From the NCBI GenBank assembly GCA_009885955.1, contig VFJS01000061.1, forward strand, positions 1 through 64,000: a stretch of 64,000 nucleotides of DNA, in the 5' to 3' direction. The notes beneath the pieces were generated by a model, which saw nothing but the letters and a program-made list of their open reading frames with translations, ran no database searches and was not told the DNA's origin. The DNA is from Spirochaetia bacterium (GTDB lineage: Bacteria > Spirochaetota > UBA4802 > UBA5550). The position numbers were made by a program, and so were the translations under genes. Shown here piece by piece: positions 4,291 to 17,555 of the stretch (within the stretch, counting starts at the first letter, position 1; each line of letters starts with the position of its first letter).

Positions 4291-4333
4291 AATGAAATGA
4301 CATGAGGGGCACAACCCTTCATGTCATTTCATT
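4291..4333 (-). terminator. strong hairpin downstream of the secreted beta-rich protein gene
   Basis: The arms at 4291-4308 (AATGAAATGACATGAGGG) and 4315-4333 pair perfectly except for one bulged base, with a six-base loop. It begins about 20 bases after the stop codon at 4355 and precedes the DUF364-like gene, so it may end transcription of the upstream gene or protect its mRNA. No long T-run follows on the minus strand, so a classic intrinsic terminator is uncertain. Confidence 0.5.
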
Positions 4334-4354
4334 TAAACTAACATTCTGGAAAAT

Positions 4355-5161
4355 TTATTTTCCGAAGATATTGATGTTGGCATCGAGCTGGAGGGTTACC
4401 TTCCATTTGCCGTTTATATCCTTATTATTGAACCTGACGGCCCCGATGAGGAGGCCCACATCCTTGGTGAAGTAATAGAGAATGCTGCCGCCCCCGCCGC
4501 CGAAGGCGTTTTTACCCGCGGCATAATCCGCGCCGAAAAGTATTTTATCATATTCCCCGGAAGCGTCTTTAACCTTGAAAAAACCGCGGTCAAATGATAC
4601 CATATAACCTTTGTTATCCTTTTGCCCTTCAGTATCCACAAGGAGCCTGTCATTGCCGTAATAATATCCCGCAGTGACGCGCCCTATATATGGTATGCTC
4701 TTGCCGATATACCCGTAGCCGATATTGTAATTTGTTTTATCCTTTTTTGTACCTGCGTTGAAGATACCGGCGCCAATTCCTGGAGCATTTTTAAACAGGC
4801 CGTCTTCAGGAGACCCTATTTTCCCATTGAAATAAATGGGGGCATTGTTTGCATCCTGTGGATAAAATGCATCAACTCCAACTTCCATCTGAATCTTATC
4901 AAAGGGGAGGATACCTATGGCGAGCCCGGAGTCTGTGGGAAAGGATTTCACGGGGTCCTTTCCATCTTTTAAAACGGAAAAGTAGTTGTCCACACCCACA
5001 TGAAGGACCCCGAAGGACTGAATGTCCATGACGTTCGGCGTCCAACAGGTTGTGGACGGTGTTGCTGCTGAATTCACTGCAGTCAGTACTGAATATAGAA
5101 AAACTGCTGAAAAGATTATCCTGTTGATTATGGCAAGAGCAATTTTTTTTAAACGAAACAT
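4355..5161 (-). CDS. secreted beta-rich (possible outer-membrane barrel) protein
   Basis: The 268-residue product begins with a basic, hydrophobic signal peptide (about residues 1-32). The rest is made of alternating Gly/aromatic beta-strand segments (NIGYGYIGKSIPYIGRVTAGYYYGN is one such region, around residues 160-185) and ends with a strand, LQLDANINIFGK. This suggests an outer-membrane or periplasmic beta-barrel. An AGAGAGG ribosome site lies five bases before the ATG. I do not recognise a named family. It is followed by a long hairpin and appears to be a single-gene unit. Confidence 0.7.
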   Translation of the reverse strand: MFRLKKIALAIINRIIFSAVFLYSVLTAVNSAATPSTTCWTPNVMDIQSFGVLHVGVDNYFSVLKDGKDPVKSFPTDSGLAIGILPFDKIQMEVGVDAFYPQDANNAPIYFNGKIGSPEDGLFKNAPGIGAGIFNAGTKKDKTNYNIGYGYIGKSIPYIGRVTAGYYYGNDRLLVDTEGQKDNKGYMVSFDRGFFKVKDASGEYDKILFGADYAAGKNAFGGGGGSILYYFTKDVGLLIGAVRFNNKDINGKWKVTLQLDANINIFGK

Positions 5162-5604
5162 AGTTACCTCTCTTTTTTATATCGCTCCGGTAATTTTTTT
5201 CTACCGGGTTTTAATTTTATATTTTCTTTTCAATCCCTGCAGCCCTGGCCTGCCATCGGCACACAGGCCTGCAAGGTTCACATAACGCCTTGCTGTCATA
5301 ATCGTACGAAAGGGAACTTCAGTATTTTTTTCATAAGGCACCTCCAAAATAATTTATTTCGCTGACGTTATAATTATTAAGTTATCAAATGATGAACATA
5401 CGTCAATTCGATAAATGAAAAGGGAGTACTGTTTCCGGTAATTTTACGCTGGTGTAATAAAGTTGTAATATGAATGTAATAAATGAGTCAAGGAACCTCA
5501 CCCCCGTCCCCTCTCCTGGGAAGAGAGGGGCACGATGCTTTATAATTTATGATATAATCAGGAAATTAAATTATTCATGAAGATAGTGGCCATTGGTTGA
5601 TTAC
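5162..5604. other. intergenic region between the beta-rich protein and the CRISPR array
   Basis: No gene is supported. The left end holds the upstream (promoter) side of the minus-strand beta-rich protein. A dispersed CCTCACCCC/CCCCTCTC hairpin element is at about 5491-5531. The remainder is AT-rich and borders the oldest, trailer end of the CRISPR array. Confidence 0.6.
5491..5531. repeat. dispersed CCTCACCCC / CCCCTCTC palindromic element
   Basis: The sequence CCTCACCCCCGTCCCCTCTC is followed, after a seven-base loop, by GAGAGGGG, forming an eight-base-pair hairpin. The same motif family occurs in the proS-proB gap (53322-53516). Such REP-like palindromes are common in bacterial intergenic DNA; their role is unknown. 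Confidence 0.55.
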
Positions 5605-8271
5605 GTTTCAAACCACACGCCCGTGCGGAGCGCGACTCAAAAGGCATTGAAAGATATTTATGAACATTTCAGTTTCAATCCACGCGCCCGCATGGGGCGC
5701 GACCCAATTCTGTTCAGGCATTCCGTCCGTTGACACGTTTCAATCCACGCGCCCGCATGGGGCGCGACCGGACACACCGTTTGACCCGGACACACCGTTT
5801 GATGTTTCAATCCACGCGCCCGCATGGGGCGCGACATCACTCATGCACAAGGTGTGTGGGCTGACTATGGTTTCAATCCACGCGCCCGCATGGGGCGCGA
5901 CCATCCTGGATGACATCCAAGGCCCTGGAGAAGATGTTTCAATCCACGCGCCCGCATGGGGCGCGACGACAAAGGCCCCTTGCATGTTCATCGGCACTCC
6001 GTTTCAATCCACGCGCCCGCATGGGGCGCGCCTAATAATTTTTTTAACAATTTCAAAGATACTCATTGTTTCAATCCACGCGCCCGCATGGGGCGCGACG
6101 GATATAAAACGCCGCCTAAACTTTTTCTTGATGTTTCAATCCACGCGCCCGCATGGGGCGCGACAAAATATATCCGACGGGAGAAGCCAATGTTTTTGTT
6201 TCAATCCACGCGCCCGCATGGGGCGCGACCCAATCGGTCTCACATGGCAGAAACTTAAAGTTGTTTCAATCCACGCGCCCGCATGGGGCGCGACAATCAA
6301 TCACCCGGACAAAGGAGGAAGCACAGAGGTTTCAATCCACGCGCCCGCATGGGGCGCGACTCCGTCAACCAGCCGCAATTCACACTTATTAAAGTTTCAA
6401 TCCACGCGCCCGCATGGGGCGCGACATAAAGCTTGGATATTCTCCGGCACAAAGAAGAGTTTCAATCCACGCGCCCGCATGGGGCGCGACAATTGATGCG
6501 ACTCCTTTCATGACTGCGTACCTGTTTCAATCCACGCGCCCGCATGGGGCGCGACTCCCCACATTACGGTTTAATTTCCCCAAAAGACTTTGTTTCAATC
6601 CACGCGCCCGCATGGGGCGCGACCTTATATGCTATCTGTTCATTCTCGCTATTAGTGTTTCAATCCACGCGCCCGCATGGGGCGCGACTTGACAACTTCT
6701 ATACTTCTTTTCTTGCCTACCAATGTTTCAATCCACGCGCCCGCATGGGGCGCGACCCTATAAACCTTGACAATCCACAGAATTGATTTGTTTCAATCCA
6801 CGCGCCCGCATGGGGCGCGACCCCCTCGGGAGTCTTGACGCCAAGCGCAGACGATGTTTCAATCCACGCGCCCGCATGGGGCGCGACAATAACATGCTAT
6901 TGTGGTGTTAAAACAACTTTTGTTTCAATCCACGCGCCCGCATGGGGCGCGACAAAATCAATCTCTTGTTGATGATACTTATTTTCGTTTCAATCCACGC
7001 GCCCGCATGGGGCGCGACTCGGGGAAATCCGGATATATTTCAAGGGCCTTGTCGTTTCAATCCACGCGCCCGCATGGGGCGCGACTCCAGCGGCCTCTCT
7101 GAATTGACCCGCTCTTTCCCGTTTCAATCCACGCGCCCGCATGGGGCGCGACTCAACACAGAGTCCTCCTCATTATCGCATCCCTGTTTCAATCCACGCG
7201 CCCGCATGGGGCGCGACCCTGATTGATGCCGGAGAAATACTTGGTTATTCCGTTTCAATCCACGCGCCCGCATGGGGCGCGACTTTACAAAAATCCAGCG
7301 TCCCAATATATCCGATATTGTTTCAATCCACGCGCCCGCATGGGGCGCGACAAATATACGCCGATAAAGACAAACAGGAACGGATCGTTTCAATCCACGC
7401 GCCCGCATGGGGCGCGACGAAAAAGAGGGAAAAATAAACAGGGGACAGGATGTTTCAATCCACGCGCCCGCATGGGGCGCGACCGTAGAAGGAAAAGGAC
7501 TGTTTCCCGGAAGCCCGCGTTTCAATCCACGCGCCCGCATGGGGCGCGACAATATGTTAGGCCTGCAGAACTTCGGTCTTGGTGTTTCAATCCACGCGCC
7601 CGCATGGGGCGCGACAGGCCTTGCTCGGTGAGGATATGTATATGTCAGGTGTTTCAATCCACGCGCCCGCATGGGGCGCGACACATTTCAACCTATAATA
7701 TAACACGCCCTATTCGTTTCAATCCACGCGCCCGCATGGGGCGCGACCCGGCTGTATACCTGTTACCTTTGATATAATTGGTTTCAATCCACGCGCCCGC
7801 ATGGGGCGCGACAAAATATACCCGACGGGAGAGGAAAGTGTCTTTGGTTTCAATCCACGCGCCCGCATGGGGCGCGACAATAGCTCTACATGGAACGTAC
7901 GACCGTTAACGGTTTCAATCCACGCGCCCGCATGGGGCGCGACACAGATACAGCCCTAACCGCTAATAGTGACTTGTTTCAATCCACGCGCCCGCATGGG
8001 GCGCGACTGAATTAAATGCCGATACCAGATACTTTAATTCAGTTTCAATCCACGCGCCCGCATGGGGCGCGACATTTGTATGGGTGCGGGAAATCCAGGG
8101 ATGGAAAGTTTCAATCCACGCGCCCGCATGGGGCGCGACATTATCTGAGCGGAAAGGCGCGCCGTCCCTATTGTTTCAATCCACGCGCCCGCATGGGGCG
8201 CGACTCTTTTCCGTTTGTGAGTAAGTCACAAGATTTATCGTTTCAATCCACGCGCCCGCATGGGGCGCGAC
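5605..8271 (-). CRISPR. type I-C CRISPR array, 41 repeats and 40 spacers
   Basis: The repeat is 32 bases; on the plus strand it begins GTTTCAATCC and ends GGGGCGCGAC, with a seven-base-pair stem around GCATG. Its reverse complement is the typical type I-C repeat and the array is transcribed on the minus strand, like the cas genes. I count 41 units from 5605 to 8271 and 40 spacers of 32-36 bases. All repeats are identical except the last one at 5605-5636, which has six differences and marks the trailer end, and the copy at 6001-6032, which has C for A at position 31. The newest spacers should be next to the leader at 8272. Confidence 0.98.
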
Positions 8272-8458: not shown

Positions 8459-8749
8459 TTACACTATTAATGGTTCTTCATGCTCAAAAGAGGATGACAA
8501 CCCATGGTGCTCCACGCGGCGTTGCCAGTTACTTCCAAGAAAATAAAACCGCAAGCTGTCTTTATCGGGGTTGAATATTTTCAGTAATTCCGCCTTTAAA
8601 AATTCCCATTGGGCAGGCATTACATTGCATTCGAAAACCGATTTCTGAACACGAATTCCATAATTGACGCATGTTTTTGCAATTTTCCTGAGCCTCCTGG
8701 CTCCGATATAATCAACTGTTGATACATCATAGGTTACAAGCACCAGCAT
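8459..8749 (-). CDS. cas2: Cas2, CRISPR adaptation protein
   Basis: This 96-residue ferredoxin-fold protein begins MLVLVTYDVST, with the conserved Asp after the first strand, and has the RVQKSVFEC strand typical of Cas2. With Cas1 it forms the complex that inserts new spacers at the leader end. The ATG at 8749 is preferred because GGAGG lies six bases upstream; an in-frame ATG at 8755 overlaps that ribosome site. It follows cas1 by 11 bases and is the last cas gene before the leader. Confidence 0.95.
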   Translation of the reverse strand: MLVLVTYDVSTVDYIGARRLRKIAKTCVNYGIRVQKSVFECNVMPAQWEFLKAELLKIFNPDKDSLRFYFLGSNWQRRVEHHGLSSSFEHEEPLIV

Positions 8750-8760
8750 TACCATCCTCC

Positions 8761-9792
8761 CTATCTGATATAAAATGGCGGGTAATCGGACATTTCCCCC
8801 CTGATATACCGGGCAAGAAGCATTGACTGAATATGAAATAGAAGTCCTGTCGTTGTTTTTTCGCCGAGAAAGGGATGTTCCAAAACTTCATCCTTCTTTT
8901 TCTGATACGTAACAAGCACCTCCTTCCTTCCACGGTCACTTATGCGGACTTCCCCGGTCTCCCTAATATCAAAATCGTCCCTGTTCAGCTGCCGAAGATT
9001 AATCAAATTTAAAACAACACGGTCGGCAACATACGCCCGGAATTCCTCCATAATGTCGAGTGCGAGACTCGGTCTTCCCGGACGCAGCCTGTGCAGAAAT
9101 CCGACTTGGGGATCCAGACCTGTCGTCTCAAGGGCCGAGCGGATATCGTTGACAAGAAGCATATATACAAAAGACAAAAGAGCATTTACGGCATCAAGCG
9201 GCGGCCGTTTGTTTCTCCCTTTAAAAATAAAATCATCTTTCTGGGCTGTTATCATCCTATCAAAACATCCGAAATAGATTGATGCGCACTCCCCTTCATA
9301 TCCGCGCAAAGCTTCCAGGGAATGAACATTTTCTATAAGCGGGACATGCCGCACAAGGGAATCTATCGCCCTCTGCACTCCGCTGGCGCAGTCCTCTTCA
9401 CCATGATTTCTCAGGTGCCTTTGTAAAAGGTTCCTCGAATTCGCTATTTTCGCGGCAACGATATTCCGCGCCATGCCAAGCGATCCTGTCTCGGAATCGG
9501 ACATTAAATACTGTGCCTTCCTCAGCAGCACATTCCCCCTCTGCTCCCCATAAACTCTGGCAAGAAACTTTCCATGCATAGACATGTAGCTTATGCCAAT
9601 CCCGTTTTCAGCGCAGAAAGCCATAAGCGCAGGTGTGACCGGCTTGAATCCGAAACATACAATATTTTCAATGGTCTGCACAGGCGCCTGAAAAGCCTTC
9701 TTATTATCGAGCTCAACAACAAATGTCATCCCCTCTTTCCGGATATAAGCATCGGGCGATGTGATATACAACGTGTTAAGATGTTTTTTCAT
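8761..9792 (-). CDS. cas1: Cas1, CRISPR integrase (type I-C)
   Basis: The 343-residue protein (from the ATG at 9792) starts MKKHLNTLYITSPDAYI, the usual type I-C Cas1 N-terminus, and contains the metal-site regions NALLSFVYMLL, GFLHRLRPGRPSLALDIMEEFR with conserved His and Asp. It catalyses spacer integration together with Cas2. The frame stays open upstream to 9891 inside cas4, but that extension is not conserved in character, so the internal ATG is taken; this gives a 17-base overlap with the end of cas4. Confidence 0.95.
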   Translation of the reverse strand: MKKHLNTLYITSPDAYIRKEGMTFVVELDNKKAFQAPVQTIENIVCFGFKPVTPALMAFCAENGIGISYMSMHGKFLARVYGEQRGNVLLRKAQYLMSDSETGSLGMARNIVAAKIANSRNLLQRHLRNHGEEDCASGVQRAIDSLVRHVPLIENVHSLEALRGYEGECASIYFGCFDRMITAQKDDFIFKGRNKRPPLDAVNALLSFVYMLLVNDIRSALETTGLDPQVGFLHRLRPGRPSLALDIMEEFRAYVADRVVLNLINLRQLNRDDFDIRETGEVRISDRGRKEVLVTYQKKKDEVLEHPFLGEKTTTGLLFHIQSMLLARYIRGEMSDYPPFYIR

Positions 9793-10411
9793 CTGTCTGA
9801 TACAACCCCCTGATATAATTATCAAGCCTCGTGCCGGGAATGCCCGGCATGCAGAAATCATATAGAGAACATGAATTACATTTTTTCTCATATTTCGCTG
9901 GCGGAATATATTTTTTCATAATCATTCCATGTATTGCCTGGATGATCTTTTCCGTTTCATGCCGCAGATTAACATCAAGCTCCATGGAGAGCCTTCTCCG
10001 CGGCTTTCCATAAAACACCGCGCCCTCCGTAACCGGAACCTTGAGCATTTCCTCAAGGCACAAAGCCTGGGCGCATAACTGGGCAAGGTCGCTGATATTT
10101 TTCTTAGGCTTGCCGGATTTATACTCCACGGGATAGGGCTTTACAGCAGTACCGTCTTTAATGAACTCAACAACATCGGCCCTTCCTGACAGCCCGAGCC
10201 GCCGGCTGTAGATATTCAATGAACGGACTATGTGTGTGCCATGCCTGGTCTCATCCTCCCCGGAATCGACCTTCTCATGAAGGATTCTGCCCCTGGCGGT
10301 GAATTGATTTTCTCCCCAAAGGCCATCCACATGGATGAGACCGCACTGCCTGGGGCAGAAAACGTAGTGCTGTATGGAAGAGAGTTGTATCCAGTCGTCT
10401 TCGTGGTACAT
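9776..10411 (-). CDS. cas4: Cas4, Fe-S exonuclease of spacer acquisition
   Basis: The 211-residue protein has FCPRQC near residue 18-23 and KKCNSCSLYDFC near the C-terminus, giving the four-cysteine Fe-S cluster, plus GRADVVEF and PVEYKSGK, the RecB-type nuclease core. In type I-C systems Cas4 trims prespacers and selects the PAM with Cas1-Cas2. The ATG is only three bases after the stop of the PIN-domain gene, so cas4 seems to be expressed through the toxin-antitoxin block. No strong ribosome site is seen, consistent with translational coupling. Confidence 0.95.
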   Translation of the reverse strand: MYHEDDWIQLSSIQHYVFCPRQCGLIHVDGLWGENQFTARGRILHEKVDSGEDETRHGTHIVRSLNIYSRRLGLSGRADVVEFIKDGTAVKPYPVEYKSGKPKKNISDLAQLCAQALCLEEMLKVPVTEGAVFYGKPRRRLSMELDVNLRHETEKIIQAIHGMIMKKYIPPAKYEKKCNSCSLYDFCMPGIPGTRLDNYIRGLYQTDEKTS

Positions 10412-10414
10412 GGG

Positions 10415-10834
10415 TTATATGAATACAGCCTTATCCTTTGCAAACATTTGCATCACCTGATGCATTTTTGTATCGGAGGTAATACATTTTTCAGCTCCTG
10501 AAAGTAAGGCCGAGCCTATCTGAATGGCATCTAGGGTTTTAACACTCCGGGAGGATTTGATTACCTCCAATACTTTACCTATGAGTTCAACATCAAACGA
10601 CACAATTGAATAATGTTTATAATCCTGTACAAAAAAATCAACAGCCTTAAGATATGTGTCATTATTTATGCTTGCATCTTCAACTTTTCTTTTCAGGGCT
10701 GAATTGATTTCAAAAATCGTTATCGGTGATATCCAGATGTTTATTTCAGAATTAAAATATTTATCAACATCGCAGCTTCCCTGTTCTTCAACATATCTCT
10801 TTATAAGCGAGGAAGTATCCATGTAGATTACCAT
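10415..10834 (-). CDS. PIN-domain (VapC-like) toxin inside the cas operon
   Basis: The 139-residue protein starts MVIYMDTSSLIKRY, the PIN-domain signature, with acidic active-site candidates Asp6, Glu42, Asp102 (LDAIQIGSAL) and Asp121. PIN toxins are Mg-dependent RNases. It overlaps the end of the upstream DUF2281-type antitoxin by seven bases and ends three bases before cas4. All four acidic residues are present, so it is probably active. Its presence between cas7 and cas4 is unusual for type I-C. Confidence 0.9.
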   Translation of the reverse strand: MVIYMDTSSLIKRYVEEQGSCDVDKYFNSEINIWISPITIFEINSALKRKVEDASINNDTYLKAVDFFVQDYKHYSIVSFDVELIGKVLEVIKSSRSVKTLDAIQIGSALLSGAEKCITSDTKMHQVMQMFAKDKAVFI

Positions 10835-11031
10835 TTCTCATCTCCCCGTATCCTGATTACAGTTTCACCTGCAGTTTCTCCCATTGAGCGACCTCGTCCC
10901 CGCACATCAGCCCATTTTATTTCCGTTTTCTTGTTTTTGGAATCATATTTTAGCAGCAGATACTCTGCAAAATCGAGTACCTCACGCTTTATATTTTCAG
11001 GTAGATTATTTAATTCTTCTATTCTGTTCAT
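10828..11031 (-). CDS. DUF2281-like antitoxin, partner of the PIN toxin
   Basis: This 67-residue protein begins with ELNNLPENIKREVLDFAEYLL, the helix typical of DUF2281 antitoxins, here spanning residues 5-25, and has a basic, flexible C-terminus likely to wrap the PIN toxin. Its ATG overlaps the preceding gene's TGA (ATGA), and its end overlaps the toxin start, so all three are translationally coupled. The assignment rests on the N-terminal pattern and the pairing with PIN. Confidence 0.82.
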   Translation of the reverse strand: MNRIEELNNLPENIKREVLDFAEYLLLKYDSKNKKTEIKWADVRGRGRSMGETAGETVIRIRGDEKW

Positions 11032-11258
11032 ATATTGTTGCCTCGTTCTTTAATTTTAACCTCTTCCGCGGAGACACTTTTAATATTTCCATTCCTATAC
11101 TCGGAAATCCGTCTTTCAGCTTCCTCGGCCCTCGCTTTTTTAATTTCAGAATCGATCTCAGAATCAAAGCTTTCATAAATCTTGTCCAGCAATTCCGCGC
11201 GCTCCATGGGGGATAGACGCGAAACTTCATCAAGAATGCGCTGCATCGCAATGTTCAC
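11028..11258 (-). CDS. addiction-module antitoxin component (TIGR02574-like), no adjacent RelE/ParE toxin
   Basis: The 76-residue protein contains LSPMERAELLDKIYESF (residues 15-31), the hallmark of small antitoxins that usually precede a RelE/ParE toxin. Here no such toxin follows; instead the gene runs into the DUF2281/PIN pair with a four-base overlap. The GTG start at 11258 has GAGG about seven bases upstream. Either it is an orphan from an older module, or it now controls the PIN pair. Confidence 0.75.
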   Translation of the reverse strand: MNIAMQRILDEVSRLSPMERAELLDKIYESFDSEIDSEIKKARAEEAERRISEYRNGNIKSVSAEEVKIKERGNNI

Positions 11259-11282
11259 TGTAAACCTCTTTGATGTATTTTT

Positions 11283-11480
11283 CTACCGTTCATTTAGCTC
11301 TTCTCTGGATGGAATAGTAATTTTCTTCACATGAATAGCGTTTTTTTCAGCGAATGACAATAAGGATTCAATAGGCCTCATCGATCTACGAGCTGTTGTG
11401 ATTTTCCCAGAGAAAGATTTTAAGAATTTTTCCAACTTTTTTTGTTCTTTTTCATTTTCAATTTCAAGAATTAATTTCAT
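11283..11480 (-). CDS. small charged protein, possible antitoxin
   Basis: The 65-residue product starts MKLILEIENEKEQKKLEKFLKSF, a beta strand followed by a charged helix, and ends with a basic region and SREELNER. This arrangement is common in antitoxin-like small proteins, but I do not recognise a named family. A perfect GGAGG ribosome site lies six bases before the ATG. It is in the same direction as, and 24 bases from, the TIGR02574-like gene. Confidence 0.65.
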   Translation of the reverse strand: MKLILEIENEKEQKKLEKFLKSFSGKITTARRSMRPIESLLSFAEKNAIHVKKITIPSREELNER

Positions 11481-11537
11481 GAGAAACCTCCGGTATTTAA
11501 TGGTATATTTTCTTCTGTCTTATCGTCATTTTTGAAA

Positions 11538-11663
11538 TCACCCCTCGTAACTTTGGTAAACAAAAAAATGCTCTCGATCGCAAATACCAAGTTTTGATAC
11601 CATGAACTCCTTTGCGAGATATTCCCACGAACTTCTTATTTTTTCGATTATTTTGGCGACCAT
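11538..11663 (-). CDS. very small ORF of unknown function at the head of the toxin-antitoxin block
   Basis: The 41-codon frame reads MVAKIIEKIRSSWEYLAKEF at its start and ends VYQSYEG. A GAGAGG ribosome site sits six bases before the ATG. The amino-acid pattern (amphipathic helix with Trp/Tyr) is more protein-like than the alternative longer frame on the same strand (11497-11697). It could be a genuine small gene or the start of a decayed one. It is separated from cas7 by about 150 AT-rich bases. Confidence 0.4.
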   Translation of the reverse strand: MVAKIIEKIRSSWEYLAKEFMVSKLGICDREHFFVYQSYEG

Positions 11664-11813
11664 TATAACCTCTCAAAAACGTACTATGAAACATCATACT
11701 GATAAGAATAAGATTGTCAAGTATGAATGAATGAGGGATATCGAGTCAATCTTCCCATATATCATCAAATTGATTTATTGCCTACAAATCACTTATCATT
11801 GAATAATTGAATT

Positions 11814-12734
11814 TTATTTATTCCCCAAATCTTTCACGGCTATTAATTTGTAAACCTCATTCAACTTTTGACCATCCAGCAATATCTCATAATCCGAAAA
11901 ATCCCTTGCAGGTTTATTTGTTGTTCTTTTCCATGTAACACGATCAAATAACTCATTGGCTGGCTTGCTGCCGAGAGCAGTTTCATGCTCAAAAACAACA
12001 AGTCTTCTTGTGCTCATGAGACCTCGTGCTGCAGAATGGTCATGCTCAAACATTTCTTGTAATGCTTTCCAGAAAAGATCAAGATCTTCCTGTGTAAATT
12101 TTGTTTGTTCAGCAAGATGAGCAGAAACAAACCCATGAGCACGGTAAAGGCCATAGGGAACTGTGAATTTGCGTCCCATTGTTCTTTCTTTTTCAATGTC
12201 CTTTTCATTCGTGACTGCCATTCGGGTAATGCTATGTTCGGAAGCAACAATCGGTTCGACAGAACGTGAAAAAGTTAATTGTACAGGGCCACGTACTTGT
12301 CCTGCTGTTTTCCGTAATTTTTTATCATCTTCGCTTTCTCCAGACTTTTCTTTATCACTTGTAGCCAAAACCGCTCCAAATGTTCTTATGTCATAAAAAT
12401 TTTTGCACATTAATGCCCTTGCGCTTTCCTCAGCTCCTCTTTTTTCATCAGGAGTTTTGATATTTTTCCCCTTGTTTGCTTCATCCCAGCTTTCAACTAT
12501 CTGGCGATTTAATACAGCTTTTTCTTTTATAAAAATACCATATCCTTTTTCATTACCCTTTGTTAATTGTACATAATTTCTTATCTTACGTTTTAAACAT
12601 ACATCCGTAACAAGCCCCATACCAGTTTCCGCATCAATACGGGGCAAATTTCCTGCGTCTGGATCACCATTTGGATTTCCGTCTATTACATCAAAGAACA
12701 ATACAAAATCACATCTATTATCAACTTTTTTCAT
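11814..12734 (-). CDS. cas7: Cas7 (Csd2), type I-C Cascade backbone
   Basis: The 306-residue protein begins with the Cas7/Csd2 hallmark DVIDGNPNGDPDAGNLPR (near residues 15-32). Six or seven copies line the crRNA in the type I-C complex. An AGGAG site lies seven bases before the ATG. It follows cas8c by 17 bases. Normally cas4 would follow directly, but here 1.4 kb of small genes intervene. Confidence 0.96.
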   Translation of the reverse strand: MKKVDNRCDFVLFFDVIDGNPNGDPDAGNLPRIDAETGMGLVTDVCLKRKIRNYVQLTKGNEKGYGIFIKEKAVLNRQIVESWDEANKGKNIKTPDEKRGAEESARALMCKNFYDIRTFGAVLATSDKEKSGESEDDKKLRKTAGQVRGPVQLTFSRSVEPIVASEHSITRMAVTNEKDIEKERTMGRKFTVPYGLYRAHGFVSAHLAEQTKFTQEDLDLFWKALQEMFEHDHSAARGLMSTRRLVVFEHETALGSKPANELFDRVTWKRTTNKPARDFSDYEILLDGQKLNEVYKLIAVKDLGNK

Positions 12735-12751: not shown

Positions 12752-14488
12752 TTAATTTTCATTTTTTGGTTTAAAATATTCCTGGCGCTGATGGTAATAT
12801 CCAATAGCAAAGTGTGATTGTTCTTTTAGTGTCAGATGAGAGGGGAAATCAGTTATTTCACTAAAAATTTCTCCAATCTCTTTTTCGAAATTCACTTTTC
12901 TTCCAATATTTTCCAGCTTTGCAAGATGATGATTTTTCAGTGTTAACAGACGTGAAAATACAGTTCCGGGACTGCTTGACGCAGCACTATAAAATCTTTC
13001 ACGTATAGTACCACTTCCACCTTCTTCGTCGATTTTTTCAAGCACAGCAAAAAGTCTGCCTAGTCTGTAACCGACGTTAACATTCGTCCTATCCAGACTC
13101 ATTTTTACCTCCTTTTCGGTTTTATTATAAAATCGGTTATGTCGATTAATACAAGCTTTTAGAATTGCAGCCCGTGCACGTGTAACATGTCTCTCTGCCC
13201 GAATTCGGTTAATACAGAGATTGAGAAGTGTTTCGGGATAAGGAGTTCCATCGATAATACTCTCGATAACCTTTCCCGCAAGGTTCGGTGAGACATTCTC
13301 CATTTTATAATCAAGAACAATTGATCGAAGAATACGACTAAGAGCAAGATATTCCGGATCATCTTTGCTTTTTATTATTTCAAAATCATCAAAGTGCTGC
13401 TTTATCCTTTCTCCAAATTCGGTTACCGCCCCAACCTTCCAGAAGCGTACAGATATTCGTGCCGCATTAGGTGAAAGCCCTAAAACGTAGAATCGGTTTT
13501 GTTCATCAAATGATCGCTTACCTGATTTAATAGATTCATAAAGCCCTTTAATGGCTCGAATACCCTTGTCAGGATCATCTTTTGGTGAATCATCGATAAA
13601 CCATCTAAAATTCTCTTCAAGATTATATGTTTTTTCATTTTTTTCTGCCCAAAAAATTGTAGTAATGTCTCTCAATAATAATTTATTATTAGATTCCTTA
13701 TCAAGAAGAACCTTTAACGCGGTTGAATATGCTCCTTCTGCTTTTATTGAAATTGGTGCATTGAAGGCTTGTTCTTTCCTATAAGAATCATAACCAGAAT
13801 TTTTTTGAAATGATACAAGTTTGGCAACACTTTGCGATCCAGGTATAGGTGTTGCAGTATGTTTCCGCTGAATAGGCCCTCTTGAACCTGTTATCAAACA
13901 ACACCCTTCAGTTATATTATTTTTTTCTTCATTACCATGTTCATATATAGAACTCGAAATATATTCCTTAACAAGTTGACGTTCAGATATTAATCCTTTG
14001 TCTGAATCAAGTCGAAAAGTCAAATTACATCCAGGAATAGCTGCACAATCAATCCACAATGAGTGTTGATATACTTTGGAGATTTGGCCACTACGGTAAA
14101 AGGAAAGGATAGCTTGAATTCCTTTATCATTTAATACTGGCTCAGATAAAGACTCTATTTGTTTTACAAAAGTTTCATTTTGCTTTTTTGCCATAATAAT
14201 TGATTTTTCTGAATCATCTTTTGGATATCCTAAAACATACCCATAGTGATCCCACAAAAAATATGCAACCTGCCATGAATTTGAGCCTGATCGCCCAACT
14301 GATTTAGGGAGTAAATAAAAGTGCCCTACTTTGTTTTCTCTCATATCAATAAGGTCTTTAAATATTCCAGTTGCTGAAATATTAATTATAAACTTAATTT
14401 CTTTTTTTTCCCATCCTGCTGGAGCAATATTACTTCCCGGGTCACTCGCCTTCCTCTGATAATACTCATACAATGCCTGTAAAATCAT
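12752..14488 (-). CDS. cas8c: Cas8c (Csd1), type I-C large subunit
   Basis: The 578-residue protein begins MILQALYEYYQRK, the usual Csd1 start, and contains the LGLSPNAARISVRFW segment characteristic of Cas8c. It recognises the PAM and holds the target strand in Cascade. The ATG at 14488 overlaps the cas5 stop as ATGA and has GGAGG upstream; the frame extends eight codons further to 14512, but this start fits better. Length is normal for the family. Confidence 0.95.
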   Translation of the reverse strand: MILQALYEYYQRKASDPGSNIAPAGWEKKEIKFIINISATGIFKDLIDMRENKVGHFYLLPKSVGRSGSNSWQVAYFLWDHYGYVLGYPKDDSEKSIIMAKKQNETFVKQIESLSEPVLNDKGIQAILSFYRSGQISKVYQHSLWIDCAAIPGCNLTFRLDSDKGLISERQLVKEYISSSIYEHGNEEKNNITEGCCLITGSRGPIQRKHTATPIPGSQSVAKLVSFQKNSGYDSYRKEQAFNAPISIKAEGAYSTALKVLLDKESNNKLLLRDITTIFWAEKNEKTYNLEENFRWFIDDSPKDDPDKGIRAIKGLYESIKSGKRSFDEQNRFYVLGLSPNAARISVRFWKVGAVTEFGERIKQHFDDFEIIKSKDDPEYLALSRILRSIVLDYKMENVSPNLAGKVIESIIDGTPYPETLLNLCINRIRAERHVTRARAAILKACINRHNRFYNKTEKEVKMSLDRTNVNVGYRLGRLFAVLEKIDEEGGSGTIRERFYSAASSSPGTVFSRLLTLKNHHLAKLENIGRKVNFEKEIGEIFSEITDFPSHLTLKEQSHFAIGYYHQRQEYFKPKNEN

Positions 14489-15216
14489 TTCCGTACCTCC
14501 TCGCTTTCCCAATTAGGAACTTCAATTACACCCTTTTCTATTTTTGCACGAAAAAAGGCAGGTTTTGGGTCATTTTCATCACTGAAATCCATATCGTACA
14601 ACATAAAACCGAGATCGCGTGTATCAGCTATTGGCAGTTTTGATTCTTGTTCTTTCTTTAGTTCACTTTCTTCTATTAGCCTGAAATGGGCGCTGAATTC
14701 ACGACAGCCGAGATAGGGCTGATTGAAACACTGCCCTTTTTTTGCTCGTCGCTCAAACATTCCGTTATATTTTCCAGGATTTTCATCTTTTCTTAAATCA
14801 GACATTTCTTCTTCAGAAATCAGATAATCTGGAATTTCGCGAGATGTTTTCTTTCGTTTATCTATCGGAATAAAAACAAGTTCGCCATGAAGACGATAAC
14901 AGACATCGCGCAAAAGCAAACCTGCCCGCTGTTGCCTGTTGTCTTCTATATAAATTCCGGTTGATCTATCACTCATTAAAGCGCCTACTTCGTTACGCCG
15001 AACCGATATCCATCGAATAGGGTTAAGTACTTCAATTTTCTTTATCCTCCACTCAATCGCCGGTTTCCAGAAGATTGCTTCAAATATTGCCCGTGCCGCT
15101 GAAGGAGTAATCACATCATAGCTTACACGTTCAACTTTCATTTCAGGCCGGGTGAAACAGGCGTAATCGCCCCAAACTTCAAGGCAAAATACTTTATTAA
15201 AATATTCCTTTGTCAC
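14485..15216 (-). CDS. cas5: Cas5c (Cas5d), crRNA-processing subunit
   Basis: The protein has the Cas5 N-terminal strand FCLEVWGDYACFTRPEMKVE and the YDVITPSAARAIFEAIFW motif. In type I-C, Cas5 replaces Cas6 as the endonuclease that cuts pre-crRNA at the repeat stem. The GTG at 15216 is chosen because GGGGAGG lies five bases upstream; a GTG at 15234 would overlap cas3 and has no ribosome site. The coding length is then 243 residues. The end overlaps cas8c by four bases. Confidence 0.95.
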   Translation of the reverse strand: MTKEYFNKVFCLEVWGDYACFTRPEMKVERVSYDVITPSAARAIFEAIFWKPAIEWRIKKIEVLNPIRWISVRRNEVGALMSDRSTGIYIEDNRQQRAGLLLRDVCYRLHGELVFIPIDKRKKTSREIPDYLISEEEMSDLRKDENPGKYNGMFERRAKKGQCFNQPYLGCREFSAHFRLIEESELKKEQESKLPIADTRDLGFMLYDMDFSDENDPKPAFFRAKIEKGVIEVPNWESEEVRK

Positions 15217-15227
15217 ATTAACCTCCC

Positions 15228-17555
15228 CTAACACACGAATTTTCCGGAATCCCAGTCTGCATCATAGTATAAACCTGATCCCTTTTTGTAAAGCTCATCG
15301 CTCATCTGAACAAAGTAGCCATGAGATTCCGTATCGCTGACTAATCCTTTCTCAGTAAGTTGTTTTAATACATAAAGCGGGACATTAACCGTGAACCTTT
15401 GAAGCCGCCTGAGCAGCTTTGGATTTGGTCCATACTTTTTTAAATCATCAATCAATGATTCACTGTCGAATTTCATCCCTTTGTACCAGACAAAAATCCC
15501 CTTTTGAATCGAATCATCGATCAGCTTGAAATCTTTCGCAAATGTTCTGAACTGAAATTTGAATTCTTTCGCTTCATCAATCAGCCGGTTTTTAAATTTA
15601 GGCTTATCGAAATCATTAACCGAAGCATAAAATCTTTTAAAATATTCCTCAAAAAGATCCGGAGAAAGTTCAATATCATTGTACAGCCGCAAAATTTCTT
15701 TACTCGTATCTTCTCCTTTCCGGAGAAGTCCGGGTGGAGACGATTTGGGAGGATTGAAGATATACACGTTCCCGATCATCCCTTTTTCGTTCAATTTCCC
15801 TTCACGATTACATCTCCCTGCTGCCTGTGCAATCGAATCCAATCCTGCGAGCGCTCGGTAAACTACAGGAAAATCTATATCTACCCCTGCTTCAACAAGT
15901 TGTGTGCTTATTACCCTGACCGGTTTATCCTCCCGTAGTTTTTGTTTGATATCAGATATTAATTCGCTTCGTTCCTCACCGCACATAAGAGCAGAAAGAT
16001 GAATTGTCCCCTCCGGCATTAACCGATGAAGTTCCCGGCAGTCTGTACGCCTATTTACAATGCATAAAACTTGCGTGTACAGTGAAAGTGTTTCAGCCAA
16101 TTCCTCCCACGACTGTCTTACAGTAATATCAACAGGCTTGATGATTTTTATGCGGTTAAAAGATTTTGCCAATTCTTTAGGCTTATCAATGATGGGGCGC
16201 ACATTCCCAAGTCCCTCAAAAAATGTTCCCTGTGAACCGATTTTTCCTTCAAATGCTGGCTGAGTGGCGGTACATAACACAACTGTAACTCTGAAATGCA
16301 GCACCAGTCCTTTCAGAACCGAAAGAATCGGTTTAAGATATTCAGGCGGCAGCATCTGCGCCTCATCAAGAATAATAATGCTATTACCGATATTATGAAG
16401 CTTTCGGCAATCTGACGGGCGGCTTGAAAAAAGGGATTCAAAAAGCTGAACATTTGTTGTTACAATGATAGGAGCGTCCCAGTTTTCGGCCGCAAGTTTG
16501 CTTTCTGTCATTTCATTGTCAGGGTCGATATTGCTGTGATGTTCAAGTACCGATTCTTCTCCAAAAAGCCAATCGCTTTTCGGTAGCTTTTCGATCATTT
16601 CATTATCATCAGTTCCATACTTATAAACCTTTGATGTTTGTTCAATAATGCTCGTGTAAGGTATAGCCATTATAATTCGTTGTTTGTCATATTCTAACGC
16701 ATGATTGAGTGCAAAGGCCATTGAAGAAAGTGTCTTACCTCCGCCGGTAGGTACATTCAATGAAAAAAATCCTGGTTCAAGTGATGCTTTTGCTCGGCAT
16801 GTTTCAAGTATTTCATCTCTTCTTCTATTTATTTGGACGTTCGAAGATTCTTTTTGCTTTTTCTCCATAAATACATCAAAACGTCGTTTCAAATCTTTGA
16901 TTTCAGGAAATAATCCTCTCAAAGAAGACTGATCCGGTTTCATGAATTTTTCAGTATCAAGCCAATCTGCATCAACAAGGCATGAAAAAAGCATTCGAAT
17001 CCATAAATTAAAATATTCTGACAACTCCATAGGATTTTTAGTATTCAACGGTATAGTCTGGGGGGAATCTTTATCAAGGAACTCCGATGATTCCGAAACA
17101 GTTTTAATAATATTTATTTCTTCATCGAAAAGTTTATTGTTTTTAAAAATACGGTTTTGAAGATCACCTCCGGCATCATCCGGATACCAGTCGGGTAATC
17201 CCGCATGATGACCGCTAACCATATACGCAAGTATCCTCGCAATAGCCGGGTTTTTCAATTTTTCAAAAGAATAAACTGCTCCTGATGAACTATGATTCGG
17301 CCTACCTTGTCCAGTTTCATTGTGGGCATCTGGATCAAATCCGCTTTTTCTACAAAGGTATGATTGCCAACTTGGCAAATACTTCCCTAAATCATGCCAT
17401 AAACCCGCAAGTTCAACCCAATCACCATTTCCAAACACATCTGCGAAAGATTTAGCTAGTCCCCCCACCCCTCTCAAATGCTCCTTTAATCCCTGGATTT
17501 CCCAATCTCCCGAATCATTCTTCCTAACATGAGCACATATTTTTGTTTTATTCAC
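15228..17555 (-). CDS. cas3: Cas3, HD nuclease-helicase
   Basis: The 775-residue protein fuses an HD nuclease (LWHDLGKY, His54/Asp55; SGHHAG at 114-119; LVDADW at 193-198) to a superfamily 2 helicase with Walker A PTGGGKT (269-275), DEAQ (397-400), CTATQP, and the motif VI region QAAGRCNREG. It unwinds and shreds DNA bound by Cascade. It is the first gene of the cas operon; the start is a GTG with GAGG about 12 bases upstream. All key motifs are intact. Confidence 0.97.
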   Translation of the reverse strand: MNKTKICAHVRKNDSGDWEIQGLKEHLRGVGGLAKSFADVFGNGDWVELAGLWHDLGKYLPSWQSYLCRKSGFDPDAHNETGQGRPNHSSSGAVYSFEKLKNPAIARILAYMVSGHHAGLPDWYPDDAGGDLQNRIFKNNKLFDEEINIIKTVSESSEFLDKDSPQTIPLNTKNPMELSEYFNLWIRMLFSCLVDADWLDTEKFMKPDQSSLRGLFPEIKDLKRRFDVFMEKKQKESSNVQINRRRDEILETCRAKASLEPGFFSLNVPTGGGKTLSSMAFALNHALEYDKQRIIMAIPYTSIIEQTSKVYKYGTDDNEMIEKLPKSDWLFGEESVLEHHSNIDPDNEMTESKLAAENWDAPIIVTTNVQLFESLFSSRPSDCRKLHNIGNSIIILDEAQMLPPEYLKPILSVLKGLVLHFRVTVVLCTATQPAFEGKIGSQGTFFEGLGNVRPIIDKPKELAKSFNRIKIIKPVDITVRQSWEELAETLSLYTQVLCIVNRRTDCRELHRLMPEGTIHLSALMCGEERSELISDIKQKLREDKPVRVISTQLVEAGVDIDFPVVYRALAGLDSIAQAAGRCNREGKLNEKGMIGNVYIFNPPKSSPPGLLRKGEDTSKEILRLYNDIELSPDLFEEYFKRFYASVNDFDKPKFKNRLIDEAKEFKFQFRTFAKDFKLIDDSIQKGIFVWYKGMKFDSESLIDDLKKYGPNPKLLRRLQRFTVNVPLYVLKQLTEKGLVSDTESHGYFVQMSDELYKKGSGLYYDADWDSGKFVC

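Follow-up and report, generated by a model that had tools for sequence, protein, structure and literature searches.

Predicted protein toxin–antitoxin modules recur at the cas7–cas4 junction of type I-C CRISPR-Cas operons

A block of small genes within a type I-C operon

The window (the whole 64,000-nucleotide stretch analysed) carries a complete type I-C operon on its minus strand, in which cas3, cas5c, cas8c and cas7 are followed by a block of small genes, then by cas4, cas1 and cas2, and finally by a CRISPR array (Table 1). The gene order cas3-cas5c-cas8c-cas7-cas4-cas1-cas2, the Csd1/Csd2 proteins and the array adjoining cas2 place the operon in type I-C, and its top PADLOC matches are Cas8c, Cas7c, Cas5c, Cas4c and Cas1c. 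The block lies between the cas7 stop (11814) and the cas4 start (10411), with the doubtful frame orfA, orfB, the Unstab_antitox gene (Unstab), the DUF2281 gene and the PIN gene all in the cas orientation. No match to the block was found among the spacers of the window's array. An initial annotation had described a toxin–antitoxin (TA) block at this place, and its coordinates and families (cas7, cas4, PIN, DUF2281 and TIGR02574-like) agree with the Pfam matches and the ORF coordinates.

Table 1. Features of the type I-C operon of the window and of the block between cas7 and cas4.
Feature	Position	Strand	Evidence
CRISPR array	5672..8271	.	at least 39 exact 32-nt repeats
cas2	8459..8755	-	98-aa ORF right behind cas1; tblastn to relatives' cas2
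cas1 (type I-C)	8761..9792	-	PF01867 E 1.6e-102; PADLOC Cas1c
cas4 (type I-C), first adaptation-module gene	9776..10411	-	PF01930 E 5.3e-27; PADLOC Cas4c 1.8e-82
PIN-domain (VapC-fold) toxin, predicted, 139 aa	10415..10834	-	PF01850 E 5.6e-9; fold; G030 homologue
DUF2281 antitoxin-like gene, 67 aa	10828..11031	-	PF10047 E 4e-10
Unstab_antitox (TIGR02574-like) antitoxin, 76 aa, GTG start	11028..11258	-	PF09720 E 8.4e-15
orfB, 65 aa, orphan antitoxin-like gene of orfB-PIN module	11283..11480	-	85% identical orfB in G009
orfA, 41-aa frame, probably no gene	11538..11663	-	without Pfam match or homologue
Promoter-like site TTGACA-16-TATGAT	11693..11720	-	11/12 consensus positions
cas7 (type I-C, Csd2), last effector-module gene	11814..12734	-	PF05107 E 4.5e-103; PADLOC Cas7c
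cas8c	12752..14512	-	PADLOC Cas8c 2.7e-156
cas5c	14485..15234	-	PADLOC Cas5c 1e-76
cas3	15228..17555	-	PADLOC Cas3c 1.1e-208

The coupling by ATGA or seven-base overlaps that had been claimed for the whole block is limited to its last three genes. Unstab and DUF2281 share an ATGA, DUF2281 and PIN overlap by 7 nt, and the PIN stop (10415) lies 3 nt ahead of the cas4 ATG (10411), as the initial annotation had stated. Gaps of 57 and 24 nt, with no overlap, separate orfA from orfB and orfB from Unstab. The strongest sigma-70-like match in the whole stretch is situated between cas7 and the block, read from 11720 to 11693; the region has 12 such sites versus 9.5 (sd 3.1) in shuffles, which is no excess over chance.

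The acidic residues of the PIN protein, D6, E42, D102 and D121, are all kept in the alignment, in line with the intact acidic residues noted in the initial annotation. By sequence the protein has no match in the PDB, but a fold search did match: the AF2 model has a pLDDT of 95, and the top PDB matches in Foldseek are PIN/VapC proteins. A scan of genome contigs with the PIN alone gave no match. The PIN RNase fold with its four conserved acids and the small upstream antitoxin-like gene overlapping the toxin gene correspond to a type II TA module of the VapBC/PIN kind. The difference is that the presumed antitoxin here is a DUF2281 protein (plus Unstab), without a classical VapB, and that the module is built into a cas operon. 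The 7-nt overlap of DUF2281 and PIN is also found in G030, and a free-standing DUF2281-PIN pair is found in G031.

The first small ORF, orfA, is not supported as a gene, because it has no Pfam match and no homologue in any locus compared. The second small protein of the initial annotation, orfB, is a real gene. Its family is without a Pfam entry. In G009 its homologue, with saturated synonymous sites, is followed directly by a PIN toxin gene at this same junction, and an orfB-PIN pair stands free outside CRISPR in G005. Since orfB-PIN modules occur elsewhere and the PIN partner is missing in the window, orfB of the window is an orphan antitoxin-like gene. The Unstab gene likewise lacks its usual ParE partner; Unstab is paired with ParE in G013, G012, L189 and L193, and Unstab genes 50-62% identical to that of the window occupy the same junction in G013, G012, G009 and, partly, G030. 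Judged by these comparisons, the block is one complete predicted module (DUF2281-PIN) together with two putative antitoxins (Unstab, orfB) without their usual toxins, and we infer that successive modules have used the cas7–cas4 site of the window.

Recurrence at the cas7–cas4 junction

The initial annotation had allowed for a random insertion in case close relatives lacked the block. However, the same layout was found in G030, a member of another family of the same order, where the genes run Unstab-DUF2281-PIN-cas4-cas1-cas2 and both the 7-nt overlap and the 3-nt gap recur. Its PIN, directly before cas4, is 48-49% identical to that of the window, and its DUF2281 protein 62% identical. A TA module lies upstream of cas4 in 8 of the 12 loci of the order: Unstab-DUF2281-PIN (G000, G030), Unstab with orfB-PIN (G009), Unstab-ParE (G012, G013), HicBA (G016), DUF4160-DUF2442 (G038) and MNT-HEPN (G029). 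The loci of the order without TA before cas4 carry a BRO-N gene (G020) or nothing (G024, G031, G039).

A wider survey combined 80 loci taken by Cas7 alignment, blind to the gap, with further loci from the window's phylum and from a single second phylum, to which the Halomonas genome of L124 belongs. Gaps were counted from homology-based gene starts, and removal of four duplicate loci left 118 non-duplicate cas7-cas4 junctions from several phyla. Inserts of at least 250 nt were present in 36 of the 118 cas7-cas4 gaps and in 15 of 509 other cas junctions (Fisher p about 2e-17, a value that overstates independence because the loci are related by descent). The other junctions contributed 6/91 (cas3-cas5), 0/94 (cas5-cas8), 2/133 (cas8-cas7), 6/111 (cas4-cas1) and 1/80 (cas1-cas2). 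TA genes or clear remnants were recognised in at least 23 of the 118 cas7-cas4 gaps, that is, in at least 23 of the 36 inserts, versus 4 of 509 elsewhere; the window and its same-order relatives were chosen for kinship, not for their gaps, and without them the 23 drop by six. Weaker cases among the 23 are L077 (a remnant, known by similarity to L134), L078 (DUF2442 alone), L139 (first gene broken), L192 (two Unstab genes, no toxin seen), and L094 and L083, in which the antitoxin and HicB, respectively, are without a Pfam match.

About nine kinds of TA module were found at cas7-cas4: Unstab-ParE, HicBA, DUF2281-PIN, orfB-PIN, another antitoxin-PIN pair, DUF433-DUF5615, DUF4258-MqsA-like, MNT-HEPN (nucleotidyltransferase-HepT) and DUF4160-DUF2442. 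This diversity points to many independent events. One of the embedded modules belongs to a culturable host, Marinobacter sp. ELB17 (L133). The four cases away from this junction are a PIN gene in cas3-cas5 of L134, a DUF3368 gene in cas8-cas7 of L039, and PemK/RHH in cas4-cas1 of L079 and L116 (the latter recognised by near-identical ORFs). In these last two betaproteobacterial I-C loci, a PemK/MazF-type toxin and an RHH antitoxin lie on the opposite strand (L079, 10116-10825; L116, 9491-10227). By these comparisons, predicted protein TA modules have a recurrent insertion hotspot, across phyla, between cas7 and cas4 of type I-C operons, at the seam between the effector and adaptation modules. 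The finding is thus larger than the initial annotation supposed. About 70% of the I-C junctions are without an insert, and TA is therefore dispensable. A type I-B control was small: of the seven effector/adaptation junctions that were visible, three had inserts, and no recognised TA was among these. In six plasmid-borne I-C operons (L252-L256, L259) the cas7-cas4 junctions are short (up to 150 nt) and no TA module was found; chromosomal I-C loci possibly carry TA modules more often than plasmid ones.

Within the gap the modules abut cas4. The distance from the last TA stop to the cas4 start is -22 to +12 nt in 13 of the 16 same-strand modules and 29, 48 and 216 nt in the others, so that the stop is at most 15 nt away in 12 of 16 and at most 48 nt in 15 of 16. 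On the other side, 1 to 264 nt separate cas7 from the module. In L083, L132 and L189 the module takes up the whole gap, with at most 3 bases spare on either side, which leaves no space for a separate promoter between cas7 and the module. The window is unlike these three, having 150 nt and the promoter-like site between cas7 and the block. Modules on the opposite strand at this junction (L079 and L134, and as remnants in L077) indicate that co-transcription is not universal.

Exchange at the seam and constraint on the embedded genes

Pairwise identities between loci correlate at 0.71-0.82 within the set of cas5, cas8 and cas7 and at 0.63 for the pair of cas4 and cas1, versus 0.15-0.29 across the cas7/cas4 line. 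On such correlations the junction is a boundary of exchange between effector (cas3-5-8-7) and adaptation (cas4-1-2) modules. L018 and L144, for example, share cas4 at 87% and cas1 at 94% identity, have unrelated effectors (cas7 33%), and carry the same Unstab-ParE (72% and 52%). TA labels change 9 times on the adaptation tree and 12 times on the effector tree, with about 18 changes in shuffles; by tree count, the TA state has changed at least 9 times. These patterns suggest that TA modules go, in part, with the adaptation genes. The G+C content of the window block is 0.31-0.39, like that of the effector genes, and that of cas4-cas1 is 0.43-0.53, so the window block need not have come with the adaptation module. 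A single CRISPR-linked Unstab clade was looked for by tree and was not found, the CRISPR-linked Unstab genes being scattered among chromosomal ones.

A detached arrangement was observed in L143 (G029:C43:30000-35729), where cas4-cas1-cas2 at 4310-5730 lie upstream of and divergent from cas3. An MNT-HEPN pair is located about 200 nt upstream of cas4 in this genome despite the detachment of cas4 from cas7, which again suggests travel with the adaptation genes.

Between relatives, dN of the embedded genes is 0.08-0.64 with dS mostly saturated (RhuM 0.13; Unstab 0.13-0.22; ParE 0.33-0.64; PIN 0.41; DUF2281 0.28). For orfB, the comparison of the window with G009 gives a pN of 0.08 versus a pS of 0.80, and orfB is therefore not simply decaying, though its own toxin is missing in the window. 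The embedded genes are maintained as proteins. A low dN/dS also fits a selfish module kept for itself and does not tell benefit to CRISPR apart from self-maintenance.

Readings of the hotspot and other genes at the junction

Our best reading, at slightly less than an even chance, is that the TA hotspot heads the adaptation genes and stabilises them with operon fusion. This reading is proposed because of features seen directly in the sequences, namely the location and recurrence of the modules, their diversity, their abutment to cas4, the layout of G030, the exchange boundary, and reading frames conserved with dN far below dS, and because of their apparent travel with cas4-cas1. In the window, the DUF2281-PIN module at the seam, joined to cas4 and partly travelling with the adaptation module, would rely on labile antitoxins that need constant synthesis to restrain the VapC-like RNase. 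A deletion or recombination that removed the seam or the downstream genes would then risk freeing the toxin, and lineages keeping both the TA module and cas4-cas1-cas2 might therefore be favoured. A TA promoter under antitoxin autoregulation could also drive cas4-cas1-cas2. The toxicity, neutralisation, addiction and shared transcript of embedded modules are what we infer here; the two roles put forward in the initial annotation, guarding of the operon and antitoxin control of cas4-cas1-cas2, would both be compatible with the layout. More tentatively, we propose a stronger form, on balance doubtful, in which cas4-cas1-cas2 often are cassettes headed by interchangeable protein TA modules that addict the cell to its memory genes during swaps between effector modules, as a protein counterpart of CreTA at the seam. 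Counting against stabilisation are the roughly 70% of junctions without an insert, the reversed (L079, L134) or broken (L077, L139) modules, the effector-like G+C of the window block, the CRISPR-linked Unstab genes that do not form one clade, the fit of a low dN/dS to a selfish module, and the six plasmid-borne I-C junctions without TA.

The main rival, a serious possibility though short of an even chance, is neutral or selfish hitchhiking, in which the seam is the breakpoint where extra DNA harms least, so that mobile TA and other small genes gather there and are kept by their own addiction with no service to CRISPR. The site is indeed an exchange boundary, it also receives non-TA genes (BRO-N, RhuM, DUF1016 nuclease, NYN), opposite-strand and decayed modules exist, the Unstab genes at the site are intermixed with chromosomal ones in the tree, and orphan antitoxins accumulate in the window. 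However, TA modules account for 23 of the 36 inserts at cas7-cas4, far above the TA share of ordinary genes. Most modules also run in the direction of the cas genes and stop where cas4 begins, one and the same module recurs in place across families and genera (G030; L083/L132; L189/L192/L193), and the orphan orfB is under strong amino-acid constraint. We regard as unlikely a coupling of immunity to dormancy, in which the toxin is freed when a phage or an anti-CRISPR shuts down operon or host transcription and so gives an abortive-infection fallback or time for spacer acquisition. The toxin families at the junction are mostly RNases of kinds tied to growth arrest, which counts in its favour, but no trigger or sensor was seen, the kind of TA varies without constraint from locus to locus, and a module is absent from most I-C operons. 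Such coupling is the proposal of Makarova and Koonin, and a site beside the adaptation genes fits its 'buy time for adaptation' route (PMC3506569).

A CreTA-like RNA guard, in which a repeat-like antitoxin RNA would use Cascade to repress the toxin, is very improbable here. CreTA is an RNA-only module that needs an ectopic repeat-like creA and Cascade (PMC10097628, PMC8730458). The window shares with it the idea of a cas locus guarded from within, as a TA module among cas genes could put a price on losing the locus; it differs in that its toxin and antitoxins are proteins, without an ectopic repeat. A scan of the operon for ectopic CRISPR repeats gave no site above shuffles, the best matches covering 16-18 of 32 positions as they did in shuffles, and the block has no repeat-like sequence. 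As this defining repeat is absent, identity with CreTA is rejected and the comparison is an analogy only. The chance of a one-off random insertion peculiar to this genome is negligible: in about 70% of I-C operons cas7 and cas4 stand close together, and G031, G039 and G024 of the same order have no insert, but the layout of G030 and the TA modules in 8 of 12 same-order loci refute it.

The coupling proposal of Makarova et al. 2012 likewise concerns toxin-like genes within CRISPR-Cas loci; in the passages covered (PMC3506569) it deals with Cas2, Cas4 and toxin-like genes that lie mostly in or near type III operons, and says nothing of type II TA modules gathering between cas7 and cas4 in type I-C. 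Accounts of effector/adaptation module shuffling have the same boundary as the exchange point found here, without mention, in the passages covered, of TA genes marking it. A protein TA at cas7/cas4 is not described in the passages that a search brought up from a 2025 review of TA-CRISPR coupling (PMC12737573), a 2025 classification (PMC12669027) and PMC3506569; this covers open-access literature, and an earlier mention in a subscription journal is possible. CRISPR loci are often lost and gained, and their effector and adaptation modules recombine; a hotspot at the seam would be a concrete way to hold the adaptation module or to serve selfish modules. TA at the seam may thus help cells keep their CRISPR memory genes, or hold them hostage to these genes. 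If the stabilisation reading is true, ordinary protein modules from many families would join RNA pairs such as CreTA as guards of CRISPR.

Other genes were observed at the junction as well. RhuM-family genes, full or shortened, fill the cas7-cas4 gaps of L082, L086 and L105, with strong conservation from L082 to L086. Genes of BRO-N type also turn up repeatedly at the boundary, before cas4 in L066, L151 and L142 and between cas4 and cas1 in L105; the insert of L142 (G020) belongs to a non-I-C operon in which cas3 precedes it. A protein with NYN plus OST-HTH is located at cas7-cas4 of L138 (8919-9713), from a Neisseria MAG, and two more inserted genes are found at cas4-cas1 of the same locus.
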